Part shown: positions 3,068 to 15,249 of the stretch, one piece after another
Position numbering within the stretch: position 1 is the stretch's first letter
Layout of the letters: each line of letters opens with the position of its first letter
Source of the DNA: Deltaproteobacteria bacterium RBG_13_61_14
GTDB taxonomy: Bacteria; RBG-13-61-14
Direction: 5' to 3'
Length of the DNA: 15,581 nt
Assembly: GCA_001797815.1 (NCBI GenBank)
Contig: MGQK01000073.1
Coordinates: 31,712 to 47,292, forward strand
Translations under genes and position numbers: made by a program
The notes under the pieces: generated by a model
The model's database searches: none
The model's input: only the letters and a program-made list of their open reading frames with translations
What the model was told of the DNA's origin: nothing

Positions 3068-3148
3068 GATTTGGGATTTTGGATTTTCGATTTTAGATTA
3101 AACGCTTTCCGCCAATCCAAAATCCAAAATCTAAAATCCAAAATTCTT
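3068..3148. repeat. Heptamer-array hairpin between purF-like gene and pentapeptide-repeat gene
   Basis: The left arm (3068-3102) is five heptamers of the type GATTTTG. The right arm (3114-3148) is five heptamers of the type AATCCAA and ends at the base before the purF-like stop codon. Comparing 3068-3099 with the reverse complement of 3114-3145 gives 27 of 32 matches by eye, with a loop of about 14 bases. The element fills most of a 111-base gap. No T-run follows on the minus strand, so a classic terminator is unlikely, but attenuation or mRNA stabilisation is possible. Confidence 0.85.
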
Positions 3149-4540
3149 TCACTCTTCCCCGGTCCAGCAATAGAGGCAGAGCTTGTCCCGGGACAGGCCG
3201 ATGGCGGCGATCATGTCGTCCAGGGTCTGGTAGCGGAGACTGGTCACGCCCAGGTCTTCGGCGATCCAATCCACCATCTTGCTGAATTTTTCCGTGCGCT
3301 CATCCAGGTAGGGCGTGATGTCGGCCAAGTCGCTCCCTTCCAGGGCCCGGATGGCCCGGCGCGCGGCCAGTTCCTCGATCGAGCGGGTGCTGAGCGCGAA
3401 CTTGCAGGGGAACATGAGCGGCGGGCAGGCCGGCCGGATGTGGATTTCCTGCGCGCCCGCTCCTTTCAGCTTCTGCACGGTCAGGTTTTTAAGCTGGGTG
3501 CCGCGCACGATCGAGTCCTCGCAGAGGATGATCCGCTGGCCCTGGCTGATTTCTTCAATCGCGATCAGCTTCATCTTGGCCACGTGGTCGCGGATCTCCT
3601 GGGAGGGCGGGGTGTAAGAGCGGCCGTAACCGGGCGTGTATTTGACCAGGGGCCGGCAATAGGGAAGTTTGGATTCCATGGCATAGCCGATGGCGTGGCC
3701 GGTGCCGGAGTCGGGCACGCCGGCGACCAGATCGGCCTGGACGTGGTCGCGCCGGGCCATCGCCCGACCCGAGCGGTTGCGGACCATTTCCACCGAGATG
3801 CCCTCATAGCTGGAGGCGGGGTGGCCGGTGTAGATCCAGAGGAAGGCGCACACCTGGGAGCGGTGGTTGCCGTCGCTGTGCGCCTGCGCCCCGGAAGGGC
3901 TGAGCAGCACGATCTCGCCCGGGCGCAGAATCTTGATGGTCTTGAAGCCGAGGTTGGGAAAAGCGCAGGTTTCCGAGGCCACCGCGAACTCGCCTTGGCG
4001 CTCGCCGATGAGCAGGGGGGTGCGGCCCAGGCGGTCGCGGGCGGCATAGATCCCCTCTCGGGTCAGGGCCAGAAGCGAGATCGAACCCTCGATCTTCTCA
4101 AAGGCATACTCGATGCCGTCCACCAGGTCCCGGCCATGGGCGATGATCTTGGCCAAAAGCTCGGTGGGGTTGGGTCCGCCCCGGTGCAACTCGGAAAAGG
4201 TGTCGCCCTGGGAAAGGAGTTCGCGGTAAATTTCCTGGGCATTCTCGATCAGGCCGGCGCTGACCAGGGCGAAGTCGCCGAAGCGGGAGGAGATCAGGAT
4301 GGGCTGGGGGTTGGAGTCGCTGATCACGCCGATCCCGGCCGGGCCGGGCATGGCCTGGTATTCGTGGGCGAACTTGGACTTGAACTGGCTCTGGGAGATG
4401 TCATGGATCACGCGGCTGAAGTGATCGCCCAGGGTGGCCAGGCCTCCGATCTCGGTGCCCAGGTGGGAATGGTAATCGGTGCCGTAAAGCAAGGTCTCCG
4501 CGCAATCGCCCTTGGTCACTGCTCCAAACAGGCCGCTCAT
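3149..4540 (-). CDS. purF: Amidophosphoribosyltransferase-like protein (PurF family) lacking the N-terminal catalytic Cys
   Basis: PurF makes 5-phosphoribosylamine from PRPP and glutamine, the first step of purine synthesis. This 463-residue protein has the class II glutaminase fold followed by a phosphoribosyltransferase domain. The PRPP loop is EDSIVRGT (341-348), and GVPDSGTGHAIGYA (274-287) is typical of the family. Four cysteines (231, 379, 455, 458) fit the iron-sulfur ligands known for the Bacillus-type enzyme. The N-terminus, however, is MSGLFGAV: residue 2 is Ser, encoded by AGC, where the mature enzyme normally begins with the nucleophile Cys. The usual glutaminase RYST-type segment is also not recognisable; that area reads GPAGIGVISDSNPQP. 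A stop codon sits two codons upstream of ATG 4540 and GAGGTG precedes it, so the start is secure. It lies 64 bases after purB. It may be an ammonia-dependent enzyme or a regulatory paralogue; the symbol denotes family membership only. Confidence 0.85.
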   Translation of the reverse strand: MSGLFGAVTKGDCAETLLYGTDYHSHLGTEIGGLATLGDHFSRVIHDISQSQFKSKFAHEYQAMPGPAGIGVISDSNPQPILISSRFGDFALVSAGLIENAQEIYRELLSQGDTFSELHRGGPNPTELLAKIIAHGRDLVDGIEYAFEKIEGSISLLALTREGIYAARDRLGRTPLLIGERQGEFAVASETCAFPNLGFKTIKILRPGEIVLLSPSGAQAHSDGNHRSQVCAFLWIYTGHPASSYEGISVEMVRNRSGRAMARRDHVQADLVAGVPDSGTGHAIGYAMESKLPYCRPLVKYTPGYGRSYTPPSQEIRDHVAKMKLIAIEEISQGQRIILCEDSIVRGTQLKNLTVQKLKGAGAQEIHIRPACPPLMFPCKFALSTRSIEELAARRAIRALEGSDLADITPYLDERTEKFSKMVDWIAEDLGVTSLRYQTLDDMIAAIGLSRDKLCLYCWTGEE

Positions 4541-4604
4541 GCTTCACCTCGCTAATTCTGGATCGAGGCCCAGCCCCTTCGCGCCTCCGCGGCCAGGCCG
4601 CGCT

Positions 4605-5906
4605 TCATCGGGAAAACACGCGCCGAAAAATGAAATCCACTTGCGCCAGTTGTTTTTTCAGGTTGAAACAGTCCTTGACCTCTTGCGGCTTCAGGTGGCG
4701 GAGCAGTTCCACGTCCTTGAGCAGGCAGCTCTGAAAGTCCTGCTTGCCTTCTTCCCACGCCTTCATGGCGTTGCGCTGGACCAGGGCATAGGCCTGCTCG
4801 CGGGTCAAGCCTTTTTCCACCAGCTTGAGGAGCACGGCCTCGGAGAAGATCAGGCCCCGGGTCAAACCCAGGTTGGCCTTCATCCGCCCGGGATAGACGA
4901 TCAGCCGGTCCACCACGGAGGTGAAGCGGGCGAGCATGTAGTCGAGGAGGATGGTGGAGTCCGGCGCGATCACCCGCTCGACCGAGGAGTGGGAGATGTC
5001 GCGCTCGTGCCAGAGCGCCACGTTCTCGAGCGCGGCCAAGGCGTTGGCGCGGAGCAGGCGGGCCAGCCCGGAAATGTTCTCCGCGGCGATGGGGTTGCGC
5101 TTGTGGGGCATGGCCGAGGACCCTTTCTGACCGCGGTGGAAGAACTCCTCGGCTTCCAGCACCTCGGTGCGCTGCCAGTGGCGCACGGAGGTGGCGAACT
5201 TGTCCAGGCTGGAGGCGATCACCGCGCAGGTGGTGAAGTATTCGGCGTGGCGGTCGCGCTGGAGCACCTGGGTGGTGACGTTGGGCGTCTTCAGATGAAG
5301 CCGCTGCATCACGTAGCGCTCGACCCGAGGATCCACGTGCGCGTAAGTGCCGACCGCGCCCGAGATCTGGCCGACCCGCACCGCCTCGCGCGCCCGCTCC
5401 ATGCGCTCCAAGTTGCGGCCCATCTCGTCGAACCAGAGCGCGAAGACCAGGCCCAGCGTAATCGGCTCGGCGTGGACGCCGTGGCTGCGGCCGATCATGG
5501 CCGTGTTCTGGTAGCGGCGGGCCTGCCGGCGCAGCACCCGGCGAAGACCGCGGAGGTCGTCGAGGATGAGGTCCGCGGCCCGGGTGAGCTGGACCGCCAG
5601 GCAAGTGTCGAGCACGTCGGAACTGGTCAGCCCCAGGTGGATATAGCCGGAGTAACGCGGCCCCACTTTCTCGGCCAGTGCCTGGGTGAAGGCCACCACG
5701 TCGTGGCGGGTGATCTTCTCCAGGTCCAGCACCCGCTTCAGCTCGTAGCCGGCCTTCCGGCGGATCTCCGCCGCCGCCTTTTTGGGAATCCGACCTAACC
5801 GGGCCCAGGCCTCGCAGGCCAGGACCTCGATCTCTAGCCAGATATCAAACCGGCTTTGGTCGGTCCAGATTCGGCCCATTTCCGGCCGGGTGTATCTTTC
5901 GATCAT
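4605..5906 (-). CDS. purB: Adenylosuccinate lyase
   Basis: Cytosolic fumarase/aspartase-superfamily enzyme that releases fumarate from SAICAR and from adenylosuccinate, in two steps of purine synthesis. At 433 residues it matches the short bacterial form. Visible motifs are TRHDVVAF with His68, TSSDVLDT (94-101), SHGVHAEP with His142 (141-148), and the superfamily signature [11 protein letters not shown] (262-272), whose mobile loop carries the catalytic Ser. ATG 5906 is preceded by TGAGG at suitable spacing. Its downstream neighbour is the purF-like gene, 64 bases away, so the two probably share a transcript. All key residues appear intact. Confidence 0.97.
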
Positions 5907-5931
5907 TGCTAAACCTCAAAAGAAATTCTTA

Positions 5932-6002
5932 ACCACAAAGACACGAAGCTTATGAGATTATGAATCATAAAAAAACTTTTTGTGCCTTCGTGCCTTTGTG
6001 GT
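5932..6002. repeat. Inverted repeat between walJ-like gene and purB
   Basis: The arm ACCACAAAGACACGAAG (5932-5948) pairs with CTTCGTGCCTTTGTGGT (5986-6002): 16 of 17 positions match, with a 37-base loop. Each arm contains a degenerate internal repeat nearer 8 than 7 bases (for example GTGCCTTC then GTGCCTTT). It occupies a 110-base gap, close in size to the other hairpin-bearing gaps here. Confidence 0.85.
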
Positions 6003-6016
6003 GAAAAGATCTTTCT

Positions 6017-6778
6017 CTAAAGCTCCACCGTCTCGGCCGGCCGCTCCTGCCAGGTCAAGTGGATCTCGGACCCCCGGCCGGCGACGGCCTCCGCGGCCGC
6101 GGCCCGCTGCAGCGCGGGCGTGTTGTTGACCTCGCTCCGGTGCGCCAGCCACACGTGATCCAGGTCCGCGTGATGCACCCGGGCCAGAAGTTTTCCGCCC
6201 TTTTCATTGGCCAGGTGCCCGAACCGGCTCTGGATGCGCTGCTTCACCTCCCAGGGGTAGGGCCCTTCTTTGAGCAGGCGGGGGTCATGGTTCATCTCCA
6301 GGATCAGCCCCTGGCAATGCTTCAGCCGCTCTTCCACCAGGCGGGTGACCTGGCCGAGGTCCGTGGCCAGTCCCAGCCGGGTGCGTCGGTCCTCCAAGAC
6401 CAGTCCGACCGGCTCCGCGGCATCGTGGGAAACCGGAAAGGCCAGGACCTCGAAGGGCCCGATCTCGAACTTCTCGCCGGGATCAAACAGCTCGAAGCCG
6501 TTGAGGTCGAGCCGCTCGGCCAGGACCTTAGCCGTGCCGGGAGTGGCAAACACCGGCACCCCGATTTTTCGCAGCAGCAAGGGAAGCCCGCGGATGTGGT
6601 CCGAGTGCTCATGGGTGATGATCACACCCTTGAGCCGGCCGGGATCTTCATCCACCGCGGCCAGCCTTTGCTTGAGCTGGCGCAACGATAAACCCGCGTC
6701 CACCAGGATCGCGCTCTGGCCCGACCGGACCCAGATGGCGTTGCCGCGGCTGCCGCTGGCGAGAATGCAAACCTTCAA
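6017..6778 (-). CDS. walJ: WalJ/YycJ-type metallo-beta-lactamase-fold hydrolase (TTG start)
   Basis: A 253-residue protein of the YycJ/WalJ branch of the metallo-beta-lactamase superfamily; family members have been described as 5'-exonucleases or are linked to cell-wall regulation. The N-terminus KVCILASGSRGN is typical. The metal site is THEHSDH (His56, His58, Asp60, His61), with His118, Asp140 and later conserved segments EMNHD (161-165) and LAHRSEVNN (211-219). The start is a TTG at 6778: the conserved N-terminus begins exactly there and no ATG is available in the right place. A GGAG lies about 12 bases upstream, which is long spacing. It is followed by the hairpin-bearing gap and purB. 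The symbol rests on family resemblance. Confidence 0.87.
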   Translation of the reverse strand: MKVCILASGSRGNAIWVRSGQSAILVDAGLSLRQLKQRLAAVDEDPGRLKGVIITHEHSDHIRGLPLLLRKIGVPVFATPGTAKVLAERLDLNGFELFDPGEKFEIGPFEVLAFPVSHDAAEPVGLVLEDRRTRLGLATDLGQVTRLVEERLKHCQGLILEMNHDPRLLKEGPYPWEVKQRIQSRFGHLANEKGGKLLARVHHADLDHVWLAHRSEVNNTPALQRAAAAEAVAGRGSEIHLTWQERPAETVEL

Positions 6779-6880
6779 GACCTAGTAGCTCTCCGTTCCC
6801 CGACCACTACGGGTTGCACAAATCATAACCAATGCACCCGGCTTTTGCAAGTCAAATTTTTTAAAACCGCAGAGAATTTT

Positions 6881-6929
6881 CACCCTTCATTCTTCACTGT
6901 GCACTGTCCACTGTTTACTGTGCACTATT
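6881..6929. repeat. Array of seven degenerate heptamers downstream of mlaD
   Basis: Seven consecutive 7-base units (49 bases) can be read: CACCCTT, CATTCTT, CACTGTG, CACTGTC, CACTGTT, TACTGTG and CACTATT. The array ends one base before the mlaD stop codon (6931). The segment 6896-6925 matches the reverse complement of 9604-9633, on the other side of mlaEFD, at 24 of 30 positions. Confidence 0.85.
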
Positions 6930-6930
6930 C

Positions 6931-7863
6931 TCAGGGCTTGCGCATCACTTTCCAGGGGTTTTTCTTGATGTCCTCGGTCAGCTCTTCCACGTGCTTGGAG
7001 GTCGCATCCATGTGCTGGATCAGCTCATTGATCTGCCGGCGGTTTTCCTCGATCAGCGAGGTGATGCTTTGCTGGACCTGGTTGAAATCGGCTTCCACCG
7101 ACACCGGCAACTTCTGATAATTATCCACCAAGGTATTGAAGTCCTCCTTGTTCTGGGCCACGACCTGGCTCAGGTCCGCGGAGAGGACCCGGAGGTTGGC
7201 CGTGGTCTCGTTCAAGTCCCGGGTGATGACGCTCAGGTTGCGCACGATCTCGTTGATGTTGGTGACGTTGCCGGACACGACCTTATTCAGGTTGACCGAA
7301 GCGTCGCTCAGGCTGTCCAGGATGGTCTTGAACTTGGCCTGGACCTCCGGGTCGTTCACCGATTGGGTGATGGTGTTCATGGCGTCGCGCACGTCGGTGG
7401 CGATCTCCTGGACCAGGTTGGCCAACTCTTCCATCCGCACCATCTCTTTGCCCGGCACCACCGATTCCGGTTCCAGCTCCGGGTTGCGAACATCGCCGGC
7501 GGTGATCTCGATCGCGCTCTCGCCCAAGAGCCCGGTGGTGATGATCTTGAACTCGCTGCCCAGCCGGCCGCCGGACGCCTGGCGGTAGAGCGGAAGACTG
7601 GCCTCGATATCCAGGGTGACCTGGACCAGGCCGCTCCCGTCGGTGAGCACCTGAAGCTCGGTCACCTTGCCCACCTTGACGCCCTTGTAGAGCACCGGAT
7701 CGTAGGCCGCCAGCCCGCTCACGTTCTTGAAGGTGACGTAGATCTTCTTGGTCGCCTTGAACCAAAAGGCCAGGTCCGCGGAAAAGAAGAGCATCCCGAG
7801 CAGGATCAATCCCGCGGCCACCACAATGGCGCCGGCCCGGATCTCGTGACGGTAGTATTCCAT
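6931..7863 (-). CDS. mlaD: MlaD-family MCE-domain lipid-transport protein
   Basis: Periplasmic substrate-binding part of an ABC lipid transporter that moves phospholipids between inner and outer membranes. Residues about 11-33 are a single N-terminal membrane anchor. The MCE domain spans about 41-122 (VTFKNVSGLAAYDPVLYKG, then VGKV, and later GLLGESAIEI). Residues about 140-300 are a long helical, coiled-coil-like tail containing repeated Asn/Asp/Val segments, longer than in E. coli MlaD and like the extended MCE proteins. The start lies 5 bases after the mlaF stop, so the two are surely co-transcribed. No mlaC or mlaB follows. Confidence 0.93.
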   Translation of the reverse strand: MEYYRHEIRAGAIVVAAGLILLGMLFFSADLAFWFKATKKIYVTFKNVSGLAAYDPVLYKGVKVGKVTELQVLTDGSGLVQVTLDIEASLPLYRQASGGRLGSEFKIITTGLLGESAIEITAGDVRNPELEPESVVPGKEMVRMEELANLVQEIATDVRDAMNTITQSVNDPEVQAKFKTILDSLSDASVNLNKVVSGNVTNINEIVRNLSVITRDLNETTANLRVLSADLSQVVAQNKEDFNTLVDNYQKLPVSVEADFNQVQQSITSLIEENRRQINELIQHMDATSKHVEELTEDIKKNPWKVMRKP

Positions 7864-7868
7864 CGGCC

Positions 7869-8660
7869 CTATTCTCCCAACAGCGCTTTTTTGAGCTGCT
7901 CCGGCGCCGGGATCACCGGGATCGGACCCTCGATCTCGCCCCGGACGAACTGGCGCACCAGCGGGTCTTCGCTCGCGGCCATGTCGGCCGGGAGCCCGGA
8001 AAAAACCACCTTGCCGTTATAAAGCATGACCACCCGGTCCGCGACCGGCAGCATCAGGTCCACCCGGTGGGAAATGACCACCGCGGTGATCTTGAGCGCG
8101 CGCGAAAAATCGCGGATCAGTTTGACCATGGCCTGCCCCACCACCGGGTCCAGCCCCGCGGTCGGCTCGTCGAAAAAGACCACCTTGGGGTCCCGGGCAA
8201 TGGCCCGGGCCAGGCCGGCCCGTTTCTGCATGCCCCCGGAGAGCTGGTTGGGGTAGAAGTTTTCAAAGTCCGTGAGCCCCACCTGGCTGAGTTTCATCCG
8301 CACCATGATCTCGATCACGCTGGGGTCCAGGGGGGAATGCTCGATCAGGGGCAGAGCCACGTTCTCGCCCACGGTCAGGGAATGGAGCAAAGCCACGTTC
8401 TGGAAGAGCACTCCGAACTTGACCCGGACCTGGTCCAGCTCGCGCTCGCTGAGCGCCGTGATCTCGTCGCCGTCCAGCACCACCCGGCCCTGGTCGGGCT
8501 TGAGCGCGCCGAGCACGATCTTTAAGAGCGTGCTCTTGCCGGTGCCGCTCGGCCCCATGATGGCCAGGACCTCGCCGGCCTCGGCCGCGAAGCTCACCCC
8601 GTCCAGCACCTTGCGGCCGGCGAAAGCCTTGTGCAGATCATGGACTTCGAGTAATGCCAT
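7869..8660 (-). CDS. mlaF: ABC transporter ATPase, MlaF family
   Basis: The 263-residue cytoplasmic ATPase that drives the MlaE/MlaD lipid transporter. Walker A is GPSGTGKS (36-43), the Q-loop is Gln87, the ABC signature is LSGGM (140-144), Walker B is VVFFDEP (160-166) with the D-loop TAGLDP, and the switch His is His198 (VISHR). All are intact, so the protein should be active. It sits between mlaE (108-base gap holding a heptamer hairpin) and mlaD (5-base gap). The upstream ribosome site is weak (AAAG). Confidence 0.95.
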   Translation of the reverse strand: MALLEVHDLHKAFAGRKVLDGVSFAAEAGEVLAIMGPSGTGKSTLLKIVLGALKPDQGRVVLDGDEITALSERELDQVRVKFGVLFQNVALLHSLTVGENVALPLIEHSPLDPSVIEIMVRMKLSQVGLTDFENFYPNQLSGGMQKRAGLARAIARDPKVVFFDEPTAGLDPVVGQAMVKLIRDFSRALKITAVVISHRVDLMLPVADRVVMLYNGKVVFSGLPADMAASEDPLVRQFVRGEIEGPIPVIPAPEQLKKALLGE

Positions 8661-8668
8661 GCTTTAAT

Positions 8669-8769
8669 GATTGCGGATTGCGGATTGGGGATTGCGGATT
8701 TGAGGAAGAATCATTCGAGGGCCAAGGGCCAAACCCCAATCCGCAATCAGCAATCCACAATCCGAAATT
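8669..8769. repeat. Heptamer-array hairpin between mlaE and mlaF
   Basis: The left arm (8669-8703) is five heptamers of the type GATTGCG. The right arm (8735-8769) is heptamers of the type CGCAATC and runs into the mlaE stop codon. The segment 8674-8700 matches the reverse complement of 8738-8764 at 24 of 27 positions, with a 37-base loop. It lies inside an operon whose genes should be made in fixed ratio, so it could affect relative expression of mlaE and mlaFD. Confidence 0.87.
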
Positions 8770-9557
8770 CATAAATAAAACGCCACCGTCAATCCTGCGT
8801 CCGCTACCACCACCAGGATGATGCTGAACACGACCGAAACCATGGTTGCCCGGCCCACGTTCTCGGCCCCGCCTTCCACGGTCAGCCCCTGGTAGGAACA
8901 AAACACGCCCACGATCAGGGCATAGGTCAGGCTCTTGACCATCCCGACCAGGATATCAAAGTTGTCGAGGTGCTCGGTCACCTGCACCCGGAACAGGTCC
9001 GGGTCAATGCCCATGCCCAGGGTGCCCACCACAAAGCTGCCCAGCAAGCCGCCGGCCTCGGCAAAGAGCGTCAAGCAGGGCAGCATCACCACCAGGGCCA
9101 CGATCACCGGGACCACCAGGTAACTGACCGGATTGATGGCCATGCTCTCCAGGGCCAGCACCTCCTCCGAGACTTTCATGGTGCCGAAGCGGGCGGCAAT
9201 GGCCGCCCCCACCCGGCCGGCCACCACGATCCCGGTGAAAAGCGGGCCCAGCGAGCGCATCAAAGCCAGGGTGACCAGGCCGGCGGAATAGCGGGTCGCG
9301 CCGAGGTCGCGGAGCTGGGAGGTGGTCAGCACCACCACGATCATGCCCAGCGCCACCGAGATGATCAGCACCAGGGGCAGGGAGCCGGCGCCGACCTCGT
9401 CCATCATCCGCGTAACCTCGACCCGGCGCCAGTGCTTGCCCTGAAAAGGCGCCACCACCAGCCAGTAACCGATTTCGCGGCACAGGTAGAGGATGCTGGT
9501 CAGGTGTTCGAGGAACCGGATCAGGCGCCGGCCCAGGTAACCCAGGAGTCTTCGCAC
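8769..9557 (-). CDS. mlaE: ABC transporter permease, MlaE family (GTG start)
   Basis: The 262-residue inner-membrane permease of the MCE lipid transporter. Hydrophobic segments lie at about 61-80, 93-115, 142-170, 205-222 and 238-260. The MlaE-family core GRVGAAIAARFGTMKVSEEVLALESMA (about 114-140, with the conserved Gly-rich and Glu-Ala-Leu-Glu-like stretch) is clear. The frame is closed by a stop a few codons upstream and the only good start is GTG at 9557, with no ribosome site before it. A TAAATT hexamer lies just 6 bases upstream, which suggests a leaderless transcript (see promoter). It is the first gene of mlaEFD; an mlaB-like STAS gene of unrelated type lies further upstream. Confidence 0.93.
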   Translation of the reverse strand: MRRLLGYLGRRLIRFLEHLTSILYLCREIGYWLVVAPFQGKHWRRVEVTRMMDEVGAGSLPLVLIISVALGMIVVVLTTSQLRDLGATRYSAGLVTLALMRSLGPLFTGIVVAGRVGAAIAARFGTMKVSEEVLALESMAINPVSYLVVPVIVALVVMLPCLTLFAEAGGLLGSFVVGTLGMGIDPDLFRVQVTEHLDNFDILVGMVKSLTYALIVGVFCSYQGLTVEGGAENVGRATMVSVVFSIILVVVADAGLTVAFYL

Positions 9558-9563
9558 GCTAAC

Positions 9564-9592
9564 AATTTAGCGCAAGGGAAAACGGAATGCAA
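9564..9592 (-). promoter_or_regulatory. Candidate promoter for mlaEFD, possibly leaderless
   Basis: On the minus strand TTGCAT (9592-9587), a 17-base spacer and TAAATT (9569-9564) lie just upstream of the GTG start at 9557. The expected transcription start would fall at or next to the start codon, and no Shine-Dalgarno sequence is present, as expected for a leaderless gene. The hexamers are only moderate matches to consensus. Confidence 0.4.
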
Positions 9593-9594
9593 TG

Positions 9595-9636
9595 GCGGGA
9601 AGAGTGCACAGTGCTCGGTGAACAGTGCACAGGGAA
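9595..9636. repeat. Heptamer array upstream of mlaE
   Basis: On the minus strand six 7-base units can be read: TTCCCTG, TGCACTG, TTCACCG, AGCACTG, TGCACTC and TTCCCGC. The core (9604-9633) is an inverted, 24-of-30 match to 6896-6925 beyond the other end of mlaEFD. Confidence 0.75.
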
Positions 9637-9685
9637 GAGAGGTAACGCAACTCATTCCGCGATTAAAGATGATAGAAAGTTGTAG

Positions 9686-9708
9686 CCGCGACCACTCTTC
9701 GGTCGCGG
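9686..9708. repeat. Short GC-rich hairpin
   Basis: CCGCGACC (9686-9693) and GGTCGCGG (9701-9708) form a perfect 8-base stem with a 7-base loop. It is part of the repeat-filled 276-base gap between the STAS gene and mlaE, in which I see no coding frame. No T-run follows on the minus strand. Confidence 0.75.
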
Positions 9709-9752
9709 GTAACAGGAATATGGCATGGCCCGACCTCAATTTAGTCCAGGCA

Positions 9753-9768
9753 CGGGCATTCCTGCCCG
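9753..9768. repeat. Short hairpin CGGGCA / TGCCCG
   Basis: A perfect 6-base stem with the 4-base loop TTCC, in the same repeat-rich gap. I recall this motif as part of dispersed repeats in environmental genomes, without having searched. Confidence 0.55.
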
Positions 9769-9797
9769 CCAACCCTGACCTTGTTCTTATTCACAAA

Positions 9798-9826
9798 TGT
9801 AAAGTTTAATGTAAAGACCTGACCCC
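9798..9826. repeat. Direct repeat plus GTAAAGACCTGACCCC motif next to STAS gene stop
   Basis: ATGTAAAG occurs at 9798-9805 and again at 9810-9817. The second copy leads into GTAAAGACCTGACCCC (9811-9826), ending seven bases from the STAS stop codon. I recall this 16-base motif as a common sequence around REP-associated (IS200-like) transposase genes. No transposase is present here, so it would be a solo remnant. That link is from memory. Confidence 0.45.
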
Positions 9827-9833
9827 AAAAATC

Positions 9834-10178
9834 TTATCCCAGTTCCTTGAGCACGTCTTCACGGGAAGCGCGGATCTCAAAAATCTTTTCCAGGTGGGCC
9901 ATCTTGAAGACTTCGCTCACCGCGGTGCTGGGCGCGGCCAGGCGCAGCGCCATCCCCAGTTTCTGGCAGCCCTGCATGGCTTCGACCAGGGTGGCGATGC
10001 CGGAGGAATCCATGTAGCTGACCTGGGAGAGGTCCACGATCAGACCGCGCATCTTCTTCTTGAGGTGCGGGGCCATGGCCTGCCGGAGCTGGGGCGAGCT
10101 GTTGAGGTCCACTTCGCCCTCGGCCATCACCAGCACCAATCCCTTGCCCGGCTCTTCGACTTTCAGGTTGAGCGCCAT
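9834..10178 (-). CDS. STAS-domain anti-anti-sigma factor (RsbV/SpoIIAA-like)
   Basis: A 114-residue single STAS domain. The key motif YMDSSGIATLVEA (55-67) carries the Ser (Ser58 by position) that is phosphorylated by RsbW/SpoIIAB-type kinases and dephosphorylated by PP2C phosphatases in the known systems. It starts only 2 bases after the stop of the phosphatase/kinase fusion gene, so it is co-translated with its likely regulator. When unphosphorylated it should bind the kinase or another client. It could be taken for MlaB because mlaE lies downstream, but the DSSG site and the upstream partner favour a partner-switching role. Confidence 0.92.
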   Translation of the reverse strand: MALNLKVEEPGKGLVLVMAEGEVDLNSSPQLRQAMAPHLKKKMRGLIVDLSQVSYMDSSGIATLVEAMQGCQKLGMALRLAAPSTAVSEVFKMAHLEKIFEIRASREDVLKELG

Positions 10179-10180
10179 AG

Positions 10181-11911
10181 TTATCGTCCTGCCTTGAGGA
10201 GCGACCGACGCTTTTTCATGGTGAGAAGCGTCCCGCTGGGCGGGCTGATGTCGTAGTTGACCTCGTCCATGACCTCGCGGATGAAGCGGGTGCCCAAGCC
10301 GCCCGGCCGGATTTCTTCCAGTTCCCGCGGCTTGATCTTTTCCAGGTCCGGCTTCTGGCCGTAATCGCGGATGGCGATGGTCAGCCAGTCCGGAGAAAGG
10401 CTGAACTCGAAATCCATGAGCTGTTCGGTGTCGCCCGAGTAAGCATAACGGATCACGTTGGCCGCGGCCTCGTCCACCGCCAGCACGATCTTCTGAATCT
10501 CCTGGTCCAGCACCTCATCCTGGGCCAGCAAAAACTCGAGGTTGCGCCGCACCAGAGCCAGGTAGCGTGGGTCGCTCTGGATCCGCAGACTGACCTTTTC
10601 TTCTCGCTTTTCCGTCCGGCTCGGAGCCGGTTTGCCCCCCTTCTTCCGGGGCGGACCCGTCTGTTTCCGGCGCAGGCAGATCAAGGTCAGGTCGTCGTGC
10701 TGAGGCGCGCCCCGGCTGAAGCGGCTGACCGCGGCAAAGATGCTCTTGCCGGTCTGTTCGGCCGAGCGGGCCGCGGCCGCCGCGACCCGATGGATCCGCT
10801 TCGCCCCGAACAGGTCGCCTTTCCGGTTCATGGCTTCAATGATGCCGTCGGTCATCAAGATGACGACGTCCCCTGCCCCCAAAGGGTGATGCCATTCGGC
10901 AAACGTCTGCTCGGCTAAAATCCCGAGCGGGGTATTGGCCGCGCCTTCGAGATGAAGAAGCTTGCCGTCGGCCTGGCGGATGAGCGGAGCCAGGTGGCCG
11001 GCGTTGACCACGGTGATTTTGCCTTGCGCGAGATCAATCAACAGGTAGCAGAGGGTGACGAACATCCCCCGCCGGCTGCGCTCGACCAGGATCGAGTTCA
11101 TCCGGCCCACCACTTCGCCGGGCGAGGACAGGGCGGTGGCGTAAAAGCGGAAGTCGCTCATCAGCCGGGCCATGAAGAGCGCGGCCGGGACGCCCTTGCC
11201 GGAAACGTCGCCGATCAGAACGCCCATCTGGCCCTGGCCCAGGGGGATAAAGTCGTAAAAGTCTCCGCCCACCTCCTGAGCGGCGCGGTACTGGGCGGCG
11301 AATTCCCAGCCGGGCACCGCCGGGAAGGAGGCGGGCAGAAAGCCCTCCTGGATGGTGCGGGCGAACTCGAGGTCTTTTTTCAACCGCTCCTGGGCCAGGG
11401 CGGATTCGTGATAGCGCGCGTTCTCCACCGCCACCGCGGCCTGGCCGGCCAGGGCCAGGAGCACCTCTTCATCGGAGGCGTCGAACACTCCGCGCTTTTT
11501 ATTGAGGACCTGGATCACCCCGATGATGTGGCCCTCGGGGTTCTTCATGGGCACGCAGAGGATGCTCCGGGTGCGATAGCCGGTGCGCTTGTCCGTTTCC
11601 GGGTTGAAGCGCTTGTCGGCGTAAGCATCCGGAATGTTGATGATCTCGCCGGTCTTGGCCACGGCGCCGGCAATGCCTTTGCCGATGGGCAGGCGGATTT
11701 CGGTGGTGCCTTGGGCGATCTTGGACCACAGTTCCTTCTTCGCCTGGTCCACCAGGAAAAGCGAGCTGCGGTCGGCGTCCATCACCCCGGTGGTCTCGTC
11801 CAGGATCAGTTCGAGCAGGCGGTCGAGATGCATCTCCGAGCTGAGGCGCTGGCCGATCTTGAGCAGGGCCTCGAACTGCTTGACCTTCTTGTTCGCGGTA
11901 ATCGCAGGCAT
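10181..11911 (-). CDS. GAF - PP2C (RsbU/SpoIIE) phosphatase - RsbW-like kinase fusion
   Basis: A 576-residue cytosolic signalling protein with three parts. Residues about 20-165 are a GAF sensor (DRSSLFLVD, PIGKGIAGAVAKTGE). After a short helical linker, about 185-415 is a SpoIIE-type PP2C phosphatase with metal residues in GGDFYDF (215-221), GDVSGKG (234-240), MTDGIIEA (353-360) and HDDLTLICLR (405-414). A basic linker (416-438) leads to a GHKL ATPase of the RsbW/SpoIIAB type at about 440-570: N-box DEAAANVIRYA (480-490), DYG (516-518) and GGLG (537-540). It thus joins a STAS-directed phosphatase to a STAS-directed kinase in one chain, next to a STAS gene. GGGAG sits 5 bases before ATG 11911. 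No sigma factor is encoded nearby, so the output is unknown. Confidence 0.93.
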   Translation of the reverse strand: MPAITANKKVKQFEALLKIGQRLSSEMHLDRLLELILDETTGVMDADRSSLFLVDQAKKELWSKIAQGTTEIRLPIGKGIAGAVAKTGEIINIPDAYADKRFNPETDKRTGYRTRSILCVPMKNPEGHIIGVIQVLNKKRGVFDASDEEVLLALAGQAAVAVENARYHESALAQERLKKDLEFARTIQEGFLPASFPAVPGWEFAAQYRAAQEVGGDFYDFIPLGQGQMGVLIGDVSGKGVPAALFMARLMSDFRFYATALSSPGEVVGRMNSILVERSRRGMFVTLCYLLIDLAQGKITVVNAGHLAPLIRQADGKLLHLEGAANTPLGILAEQTFAEWHHPLGAGDVVILMTDGIIEAMNRKGDLFGAKRIHRVAAAAARSAEQTGKSIFAAVSRFSRGAPQHDDLTLICLRRKQTGPPRKKGGKPAPSRTEKREEKVSLRIQSDPRYLALVRRNLEFLLAQDEVLDQEIQKIVLAVDEAAANVIRYAYSGDTEQLMDFEFSLSPDWLTIAIRDYGQKPDLEKIKPRELEEIRPGGLGTRFIREVMDEVNYDISPPSGTLLTMKKRRSLLKAGR

Positions 11912-11926
11912 TGCGACTCCCTATCT

Positions 11927-12037
11927 AGGCATTAGACATTAGGCTTTAGGCTTTAGATTGAAGAAAATGAGTTCATAATTCAGATTGCCATATTCAATCA
12001 AATCTAATGCCTAAAGCCTAACGCCTAAAGCCTCTTC
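11927..12037. repeat. Heptamer-array hairpin between pilT-like gene and phosphatase/kinase gene
   Basis: The left arm (11927-11961) is heptamers of the type AGGCTTT. The right arm (12003-12037) is heptamers of the type CCTAAAG and ends one base before the pilT-like stop codon. The segment 11927-11959 matches the reverse complement of 12001-12033 at 29 of 33 positions, with a 41-base loop. It occupies a 127-base gap. Confidence 0.87.
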
Positions 12038-13800: not shown

Positions 13801-15222
13801 ATGGAAGCATTCAACCATCTCCTCATCCAGGTAGATAATTTTCTCTGGGGCTCGGTGCTGGTGATCGCCTTGGTCGGCACCGGCCTGTTTCTGACCATCC
13901 GCCTGAAATTCATCCAACTGCGCGGGCTCAAACAGGGCTTCCAGATCACGCGCGGGGCCTACGATCGTCCCGAGGACACCGGCGACTTGAGCCACTTCCA
14001 GGCGCTCTCCGCCGCGCTTTCCGCCACCGTGGGCGTGGGCAACATCGCCGGCGTGGCCATCGCCATCCAGCAGGGCGGGCCGGGCGCGCTCTTTTGGATG
14101 TGGGTGACCGCCGCGGTGGGCATGGCCACCAAGTTCACCTGCTGCACCCTGGCGGTCAAATACCGCGACGTGCATGCCGACGGCTCGGTCTCGGGCGGGC
14201 CCATGTATTACATCGCCAAGGGGCTGGGCTGGAAGAAGCTGGCGATCACTTTCGCGCTGCTCGCGAGCCTCGCCAGCCTGGGCGTGGGCAACATGGCCCA
14301 GGCCGGGGAGTTGGCCCGGGCGCTCTCGGCGCTGATCGGCCGGCAATGGCTGGTGCCCCCCGGGCTGGACCTGGTCCGCTTCTGCATCGGAGTGGGCGTG
14401 GCCGTCATGGTCGGCCTGGTCATCATCGGCGGCATCCGCCGGATCGGCAAGGTCGCTTCCCGGCTGGTGCCTTTCATGTCCGCTTTTTACATCCTGGCCG
14501 CCCTCACCATCATTCTCTACCATTTCGACCGGATACCCCAGGCGCTGCTTCTCATCTTTCACGACGCCTTCACCGGCACCGCCGCGGTCGGCGGCTTTTT
14601 AGGCTCCGCCTTCATCTATACCATGCGCATGGGCGTGGCCCGCGGCCTCTTTTCCAACGAGTCCGGCATGGGCTCGGCACCCATCGCCCACGCCACGGCC
14701 AAGACGCCCTACCCCATCCGCGAAGGCTACGTGGCCCTGCTCGGACCTTTCATTGACACGATTATCATCTGCTCCATGACCGGGCTGGTGATTATTTTAA
14801 CGAGGGTCTGGACCGGCGACTCGTCGGCCGGCGGGGCGGAACTCACCGCCCTCGCCTTTAACCAGGGCCTGGCCGGGATCCACGGCCTGGCCGAGACCGC
14901 CCAGGTCGGCCGCTGGCTGGTGGCGATCGGGGTCATGCTCTTCGCCTATTCCACCGCCATCTCCTGGTCTTATTATGGAGACCGGTCGGTCAGCTACCTG
15001 TTCGGACTGCGCGCGGTGCTTCCCTACCGCTGGGTCTTCTGTGTTTTCCTGGTGATCGGCGCTACCATCCAGATTGACCTGGTCTGGAACTTGTGTGATA
15101 TCATGAACGGGTGCATGGCGCTTCCCAACCTGGTGGCGCTGCTTTTCCTGAGCGGAGTGGTGGCCCGGGACTTGGCCGAGTATAATCAAAAGATCCCGGA
15201 GTTCGAACGGGCGCTCAATTAG
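13801..15222 (+). CDS. Sodium:amino-acid symporter, AGCS (alanine/glycine:cation) family
   Basis: A 473-residue inner-membrane transporter that imports alanine or glycine with sodium (or proton), by family. The start MEAFNHLLIQVDNFLWG is the usual AGCS N-terminus. The hallmark is GVGNIAGVAIAIQQGGPGALFWMW (about 78-101). Further conserved stretches are SVSGGPMYYIAKGLG (129-143), SNESGMGSAPIAHA in the second half, and FAYSTAISWSYYGDR near the C-terminal third. About ten or eleven hydrophobic segments can be counted. ATG 13801 is preferred; an in-frame TTG at 13759 lies inside the promoter. It is divergent from the cNMP-domain gene with overlapping promoters, and no other symporter gene is adjacent. 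Substrate choice between alanine, glycine and others cannot be told from sequence alone. Confidence 0.95.
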   Translation: MEAFNHLLIQVDNFLWGSVLVIALVGTGLFLTIRLKFIQLRGLKQGFQITRGAYDRPEDTGDLSHFQALSAALSATVGVGNIAGVAIAIQQGGPGALFWMWVTAAVGMATKFTCCTLAVKYRDVHADGSVSGGPMYYIAKGLGWKKLAITFALLASLASLGVGNMAQAGELARALSALIGRQWLVPPGLDLVRFCIGVGVAVMVGLVIIGGIRRIGKVASRLVPFMSAFYILAALTIILYHFDRIPQALLLIFHDAFTGTAAVGGFLGSAFIYTMRMGVARGLFSNESGMGSAPIAHATAKTPYPIREGYVALLGPFIDTIIICSMTGLVIILTRVWTGDSSAGGAELTALAFNQGLAGIHGLAETAQVGRWLVAIGVMLFAYSTAISWSYYGDRSVSYLFGLRAVLPYRWVFCVFLVIGATIQIDLVWNLCDIMNGCMALPNLVALLFLSGVVARDLAEYNQKIPEFERALN

Positions 15223-15249
15223 ATTGCGGATTGGGAATTGCGGAGGGCG
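15222..15249. repeat. Single heptamer array after the symporter stop
   Basis: GATTGCG, GATTGGG, AATTGCG and GAGGGCG follow each other starting at the last base of the TAG stop codon. The sequence belongs to the same GATTGCG family as the hairpin between mlaE and mlaF, but no inverted partner arm is seen before the next gene. Confidence 0.7.

Follow-up and report, generated by a model that had tools for sequence, protein, structure and literature searches.

Short tandem repeats, mostly of heptanucleotides, form inverted repeats between genes in a 15,581-nucleotide (nt) stretch of DNA from an uncultured bacterium (the window; G000:C73:31712-47292, where G000 denotes the window's genome, which comprises 4.74 Mb and is 95% complete). 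Each of the four gaps named by an earlier note on this DNA contains one such inverted repeat (4/4). The elements are best explained, at about even confidence, as dispersed short gene-boundary repeats that occupy a tolerant slot downstream of a stop codon, ahead of the following gene's leader, and that turn over rapidly.

Tandem Repeats Finder assigns a period of 7 to the first, third and fourth gaps and a period of 8 to the second, in agreement with the earlier note. The arms are 88-92% complementary over 24-25 nt in the first gap, and match at 16/17, 24/26 and 29/33 positions in the second, third and fourth gaps, respectively, which is consistent with the arm matches given previously. When folded as RNA, all four elements are far more stable than shuffled sequences (z values of -4.8, -6.7, -6.9 and -9.5). 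In the order of the gaps, the arrays lie 4, ~11, 0 and 5 nt from a stop codon, so that only one array is within 0-1 nt, where three had been placed. Similarly, the statement that most other junctions on the minus strand are tight holds for only 3/7 of them (gaps of 5 nt and 2 nt, and one overlap). The four repeat-containing gaps stand as described, but they are not the only ones, and unpaired ACAGTGN arrays in two further gaps had been overlooked (Table 1). These two arrays belong to one family, point outward and bracket the MlaD/MlaF/MlaE gene block.

Genome-wide statistics are drawn from 0.78-1.15 Mb sampled from the 4.74 Mb, and the sample was partly selected for the GATTTTR motif. Within 780 kb, 49 period-7 arrays were found, whereas no other period in the range 3-30 gave more than 6 and a Markov simulation gave none. 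Because 46 of the 49 are located in gaps between called genes, the genome-wide excess of intergenic period-7 arrays on which the earlier note had staked its claim in advance is present. Long inverted repeats are also concentrated between genes: 146 kb of intergenic DNA contains 53, versus none in simulated sequence and 4 in all coding DNA. Among these 53 are 26 heptameric repeats, 6 members of the ACAAAGACAC family that occurs in the second window gap, and 8 members of a GTAGGGGCG family that resembles repetitive extragenic palindromic (REP) elements. The heptamer families of the host genome include GATTTTR, GATTGCG, TTAGGCT, CGTATNN, GTAGTAT and CAGTGNA, so the same architecture is built from different sequences, as the note had claimed.

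The GATTTTR family has a sharply defined anatomy. When 56 arms are compared with the family template, the match drops from 0.89 to 0.27 between nucleotides 31 and 32 counted from the loop, and the arm is therefore a fixed 31-nt unit of four ATTTTRG heptamers followed by ATT. The innermost GATT and AATC motifs are separated by 14 nt in 17 of ~34 elements and by 21 nt in 5, and loop lengths of 14, 21 and 42 nt preserve the 7-nt phase. Loops are mostly unrelated in sequence, except in a trio of elements (two in locus L015 and one in L023) that have both loop and arms in common. The best case for real element boundaries is the comparison of L015 with L023, in which 93% identity extends over exactly 76 nt and the flanks are unrelated. 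Two L015 elements (6755-6830 and 10142-10205) are 3.4 kb apart in opposite orientation and are 98.9% identical over 93 nt; the identity runs 24 nt past the element, to the leader of the next gene, and this pair is a recent local copy. The pattern of ordered arms occurs 54 times in the host genome (counted as overlapping matches), 12 times in genome G202, twice in G097 and in none of 383 others, and the swapped arm order was found in 0/386 genomes scanned.

Mismatches to the repeat unit are unequally distributed among its phases (G.22, A.06, T.05, T.07, N.28, N.47, N.69), giving a conserved core and a variable linker. We rejected the clustering of mismatches in three phases as proof of selection, since variant units can spread within an array. 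It is possible that the arrays are bound by a protein with contacts to DNA or RNA at 7-nt intervals, and that outward arms serve as a boundary or insulator at the ends of genes or operons. The core and linker, the arms fixed at 31 nt, the loops in 7-nt phase, and an outward orientation that holds even for solitary arms (see below) are all consistent with this explanation. However, several unrelated families per genome would require several proteins or very loose recognition, families are quickly replaced among congeners, and the clustering of variants within arrays is also expected from the spread of variant units. On balance, we consider binding arrays unlikely.

The position and orientation of the elements relative to genes also follow a rule. 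Heptamer inverted repeats occur in gaps between co-directional genes in 22/26 cases, at a median of 8.5 nt from the stop codon. This proximity could be explained by short gaps alone, given that the following gene's leader has to be left unoccupied. Nonetheless, when only gaps with at least 100 free nt are considered, heptamer hairpins lie at most 12 nt from the stop codon in 3/10 cases in the host genome and 5/9 in genomes G386 and G387, where 0.7 is expected in each, or 8/19 versus 1.4 when pooled. Non-heptamer hairpins in large gaps have no such stop preference (5/53 versus 3.0 expected). Hairpins are scarcer in divergent gaps than in tandem gaps (0.82 versus 2.76 per 10 kb). Solitary arms of the GATTTTR family point outward in 17/21 cases (p 0.007), and for those at the 3' ends of genes the median distance to the stop codon is 2 nt. 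The preference for stop codons anticipated in the earlier note is thus found in inverted repeats, in large gaps and in solitary arms. In one convergent gap (L014:13479-13509 and 13885-13915), a solitary outward arm lies across the end of either gene, with the two arms ~375 nt apart.

Turnover of the elements was observed in another lineage with the same paired motif, the genus of G202, in a second phylum. Six congeners of this genus (G202, G061, G386, G387, G388 and G389) have 75-90% DNA identity. The locus used in the first comparison, between G202 and G061, was non-syntenic and was dropped. In one gap that is orthologous in all six, a hairpin directly follows the stop codon, and its sequence family varies: G202 has a GATTTTR pair; G388 has the same pair with CAC-linker units expanding its 3' arm; in G389 it is the 5' arm of the pair that is expanded; and G386 has a GATTGCA pair, G387 a GC-rich non-heptameric hairpin and G061 a GACGCAAA hairpin. 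Hence the claim of one architecture with different sequences applies in this genus even at a single orthologous position. G202 (loci L116, L118 and L120) also contains many perfect non-heptameric hairpins, such as TTTTGGTTGGTTTTTGGCGGC-GAA-GCCGCCAAAAACCAACCAAAA, in numerous variants.

The one-sided arm expansions in G388 and G389 are what would be expected of plain microsatellites, in which replication slippage lengthens heptamer arrays at any harmless site and template switching gives rise to inverted pairs. In most bacterial genomes, long simple repeats are most often heptamers, according to the passage of PMC4679880 that cites the study by Mrazek. This explanation fits poorly with the sharp edge of the 31-nt arm, with an arm order that is never swapped, and with the 7-nt phase kept by most loops. 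Plain slippage is disfavored in the host genome, and we judge it improbable overall.

Among 69 tandem junctions conserved between G386 and G387, a hairpin is present in both genomes at 14, in one at 15 and in neither at 40 (odds ratio (OR) 15.6, p 2e-5). By inspection, the sequences differ at 10/14 of the shared junctions, and a stricter alignment of 8 stop-proximal pairs finds 4 unrelated and 4 related. Between these two genomes, the slot is either replaced or nearly empty. However, when free gap length is matched (10-100 nt in both genomes), the stop-proximal association is lost (OR 1.8, p 0.67). We therefore rejected the presence of hairpins at orthologous junctions as proof of selection. 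The replacement of hairpins is real, but because the association vanishes on matching, conservation of position beyond the tolerance of the junction is unsupported, and co-occurrence is largely explained by the permissiveness of the gaps.

If the elements act as sense-strand RNA hairpins, they are expected to tolerate G-U more than A-C mismatches, and their arms should covary. In tandem heptamer hairpins of the host genome, G-U and A-C mismatches are about equally common (52 versus 46, p 0.61), with no sense-strand excess of G-U, and linker identity is similar within and between elements (0.615 versus 0.590, p 0.16). Because neither test is positive, selection on the stem is unsupported in the host genome, and the idea that arms are kept complementary was rejected for lack of covariation. 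In the genus of G386 and G387, a weak excess of G-U is seen when classes are pooled (128 versus 93). No U-tract follows the arms on their 3' side, and a terminator scan called no site at the four window elements. Thus, intrinsic transcription terminators, with a GC-rich stem and a U-tract, were also rejected.

These results bear on the possibility that the elements are selected 3' hairpins of mRNAs whose sequence is free to vary. Such hairpins would end transcription or reduce it, stop 3' exonucleases, or uncouple the translation of adjacent genes, and their arms would be rewritten by slippage and template switching. The highly stable RNA folds, the persistence of stop-codon proximity in large gaps, the poverty of divergent gaps, the co-occurrence of mostly sequence-different hairpins at orthologous tandem junctions, and the weak pooled G-U excess in the other genus are consistent with this idea. 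In contrast, the host genome lacks both the G-U excess and the covariation, no U-tract or called terminator accompanies the arms, solitary arms follow the same rule in the absence of a hairpin, a hairpin does not need a fixed arm order, and the co-occurrence is not significant once free gap length is matched. We regard mRNA hairpins as a doubtful explanation. Likewise, selection on the architecture, one of the two causes proposed in the earlier note, is unsupported, with covariation and a G-U excess both absent and the co-occurrence lost on matching.

A more speculative possibility is a sequence-flexible code for gene boundaries, in which proteins of one class recognize the core at 7-nt steps in outward arms where genes end, and so restrict the passage of transcription or RNA decay through junctions. 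Families would then be interchangeable, and in many unrelated bacteria one would take the place of another at a given junction. We consider such a code unlikely.

Dispersed boundary repeats are the simplest way to account for arms that lack a hairpin, fixed arm length and order, unrelated loops and quick replacement. The unit would be an arm of ~4 heptamers, with a conserved core of 4-5 nt and a variable linker, that reads away from the neighboring gene. Two arms of the same family would usually face each other within a co-directional gap, and therefore appear as an inverted repeat, so the hairpin would be mainly a by-product of two outward arms occupying one gap. Arms or whole elements may spread across the genome and be retained where they are least harmful, in the slot that separates a stop codon from the following leader, where they could later expand, shrink or be replaced by other short repeats. 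We infer that spread occurs by copying, that retention is nearly neutral, and that the hairpin probably has no essential function.

Several observations weigh against dispersed boundary repeats. Most copies have common arms and not common loops, which simple copying of whole elements would not yield. No enzyme is linked to the arms: Y1/RAYT-type transposases (Y1_Tnp matches) number 19 in the host genome and 0 in G097, which carries the same paired motif, and those of the host fit better with its separate REP-like family than with the heptamer arms. No target-site duplication was apparent by eye among aligned elements, and turnover is demonstrated only in the genus of G202, and not in that of the window. 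Also, the stop preference in large gaps and the conserved core with its variable linker could reflect a function. Chiefly for these two reasons, the elements may have a role in RNA or as a protein-binding boundary.

Heptamer repeats of this kind have precedents. GGGNATC repeats in Xanthomonas and GGGGA(C/T)T repeats in Nostoc lie no more than 50 bp from stop codons when on the coding strand and upstream of open reading frames when on the noncoding strand, with 70 facing inverted GGGNATC pairs in Xcc and 75 in Xac (Rehm et al. 2015, PMC4692102). The elements described here similarly comprise tandem, mostly intergenic 7-nt units with a variable position, ~4 units per arm, facing inverted pairs of fixed order in co-directional gaps, and stop-proximal outward arms on the coding strand. 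However, the Xanthomonas and Nostoc genomes each have one G-rich family that forms quadruplexes, whereas several unrelated families are found here, most of which are not G-rich. GATTTTR, AGGCTTT and ACAGTGN units contain no GGG of the quadruplex type. The fixed 31-nt arm and the frequent 14-nt loop also set the present elements apart.

STRR sequences of filamentous cyanobacteria and TAACTGA arrays of Beggiatoaceae are likewise degenerate intergenic tandem heptamers scattered over distant phyla, but TAACTGA arrays face start codons and are nearly always unpaired, with one inverted case (PMC4679880), whereas those studied here are paired and stop-proximal. Class 2 and class 3 sites of Geobacter metallireducens are short arrays of tandem units, with heptamers in class 3 and opposite-strand pairs at variable spacing in class 2. 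They are proposed sites of global regulators, for which a position relative to stop codons is not described (PMC2700814). Inverted stop-proximal heptamer pairs (Xanthomonas), single arrays (Nostoc and Beggiatoaceae) and paired arrays (Geobacter) are thus already described, and the earlier note's suggestion of an undescribed class was too strong. The number of families in one genome, the combination of a fixed 31-nt arm and a common 14-nt loop, an arm order kept strictly in a broad sample of genomes, and the turnover at orthologous gaps are new.

REP and REPIN elements, which are mobilized by RAYT transposases (PMC3116915, PMC2817692), are also numerous, dispersed, short intergenic inverted pairs. 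In contrast to heptamer arms, which form no hairpin alone, REPs are themselves palindromes, and it is the separate GTAGGGGCG family of the host that looks REP-type. REPINs were rejected on anatomy, since the arms are direct heptamer arrays and not palindromes of the 5' GTAG type. A perfect palindrome, GTAGGGGCACGGCATGCCGTGCCCCTAC, is located at positions 1636-1663 of the window, inside the gap at 1402-1693. It resembles a dispersed double-hairpin family of the host (GTAGGGGCGCAATT..GCGCCCCTAC) that is REPIN-like (5' GTAG plus palindrome, with a spacer of ~11 nt).

Table 1. Repeat arms, loops and arrays in the window.
Feature	Position	Strand	Basis or detail
Left arm, GATTTTR heptamers, beside leader of downstream gene	3068..3099	-	Repeat search, family consensus
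Loop AAACGCTTTCCGCC, 14 nt, the commonest loop length in the GATTTTR family	3100..3113	no strand	
Right arm, 31 nt, 4 nt from stop of amidophosphoribosyltransferase-like (purF-like) gene	3114..3144	-	
Inverted repeat of ACCACAAAGACACGAAG family, period nearer 8, between metallo-beta-lactamase gene and purB	5929..6005	-	Arms 5929-5948 / 5986-6005
Unpaired ACAGTGN array, outward, directly after MlaD gene stop codon	6895..6926	-	Gap 6779-6930
Left arm, GATTGCG heptamers, ~8 nt from start of MlaF-type ATPase gene	8669..8700	-	
Right arm, GATTGCG family, adjoining stop codon of MlaE-type gene	8738..8768	-	
Unpaired ACAGTGN array, outward, upstream of MlaE gene start	9601..9632 (detected array 9603-9632)	+	Gap 9558-9833
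Left arm, TTAGGCT (AGGCTTT) heptamers	11926..11959	-	
Right arm, TTAGGCT element, 5 nt from stop of PilT-like ATPase gene	12001..12033	-	
Degenerate GATTGCG array directly after stop of gene 13801-15222 (+ strand)	15223..15245	+	Read from sequence

The genes that flank the gaps are ordinary, and include those for a pentapeptide-repeat protein, a glutamine-amidotransferase-domain protein (purF-like), purB, metallo-beta-lactamase, MlaD/MlaF/MlaE, STAS, a SpoIIE-type phosphatase and a PilT-like ATPase. Repeats with a 33-nt period at positions 2595-2786 are coding repeats of the pentapeptide-repeat protein. No Rfam family matches anywhere in the window. Scans across genomes found no close relatives of the SpoIIE-like and PilT-like proteins, and two genomes of the same order have only 30-40% identity to that of the window.

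Earlier reports of heptamer repeats, in Xanthomonas, Nostoc, Beggiatoaceae and Geobacter, each concern one family at a time. Here, many families within a single genome follow a common anatomical rule of outward arms, stop-codon proximity and fixed order, and in a second phylum the same slot is refilled with unrelated hairpins between sister species. The origin and upkeep of heptamer repeats thereby become testable through comparison of congeners and mapping of RNA ends.

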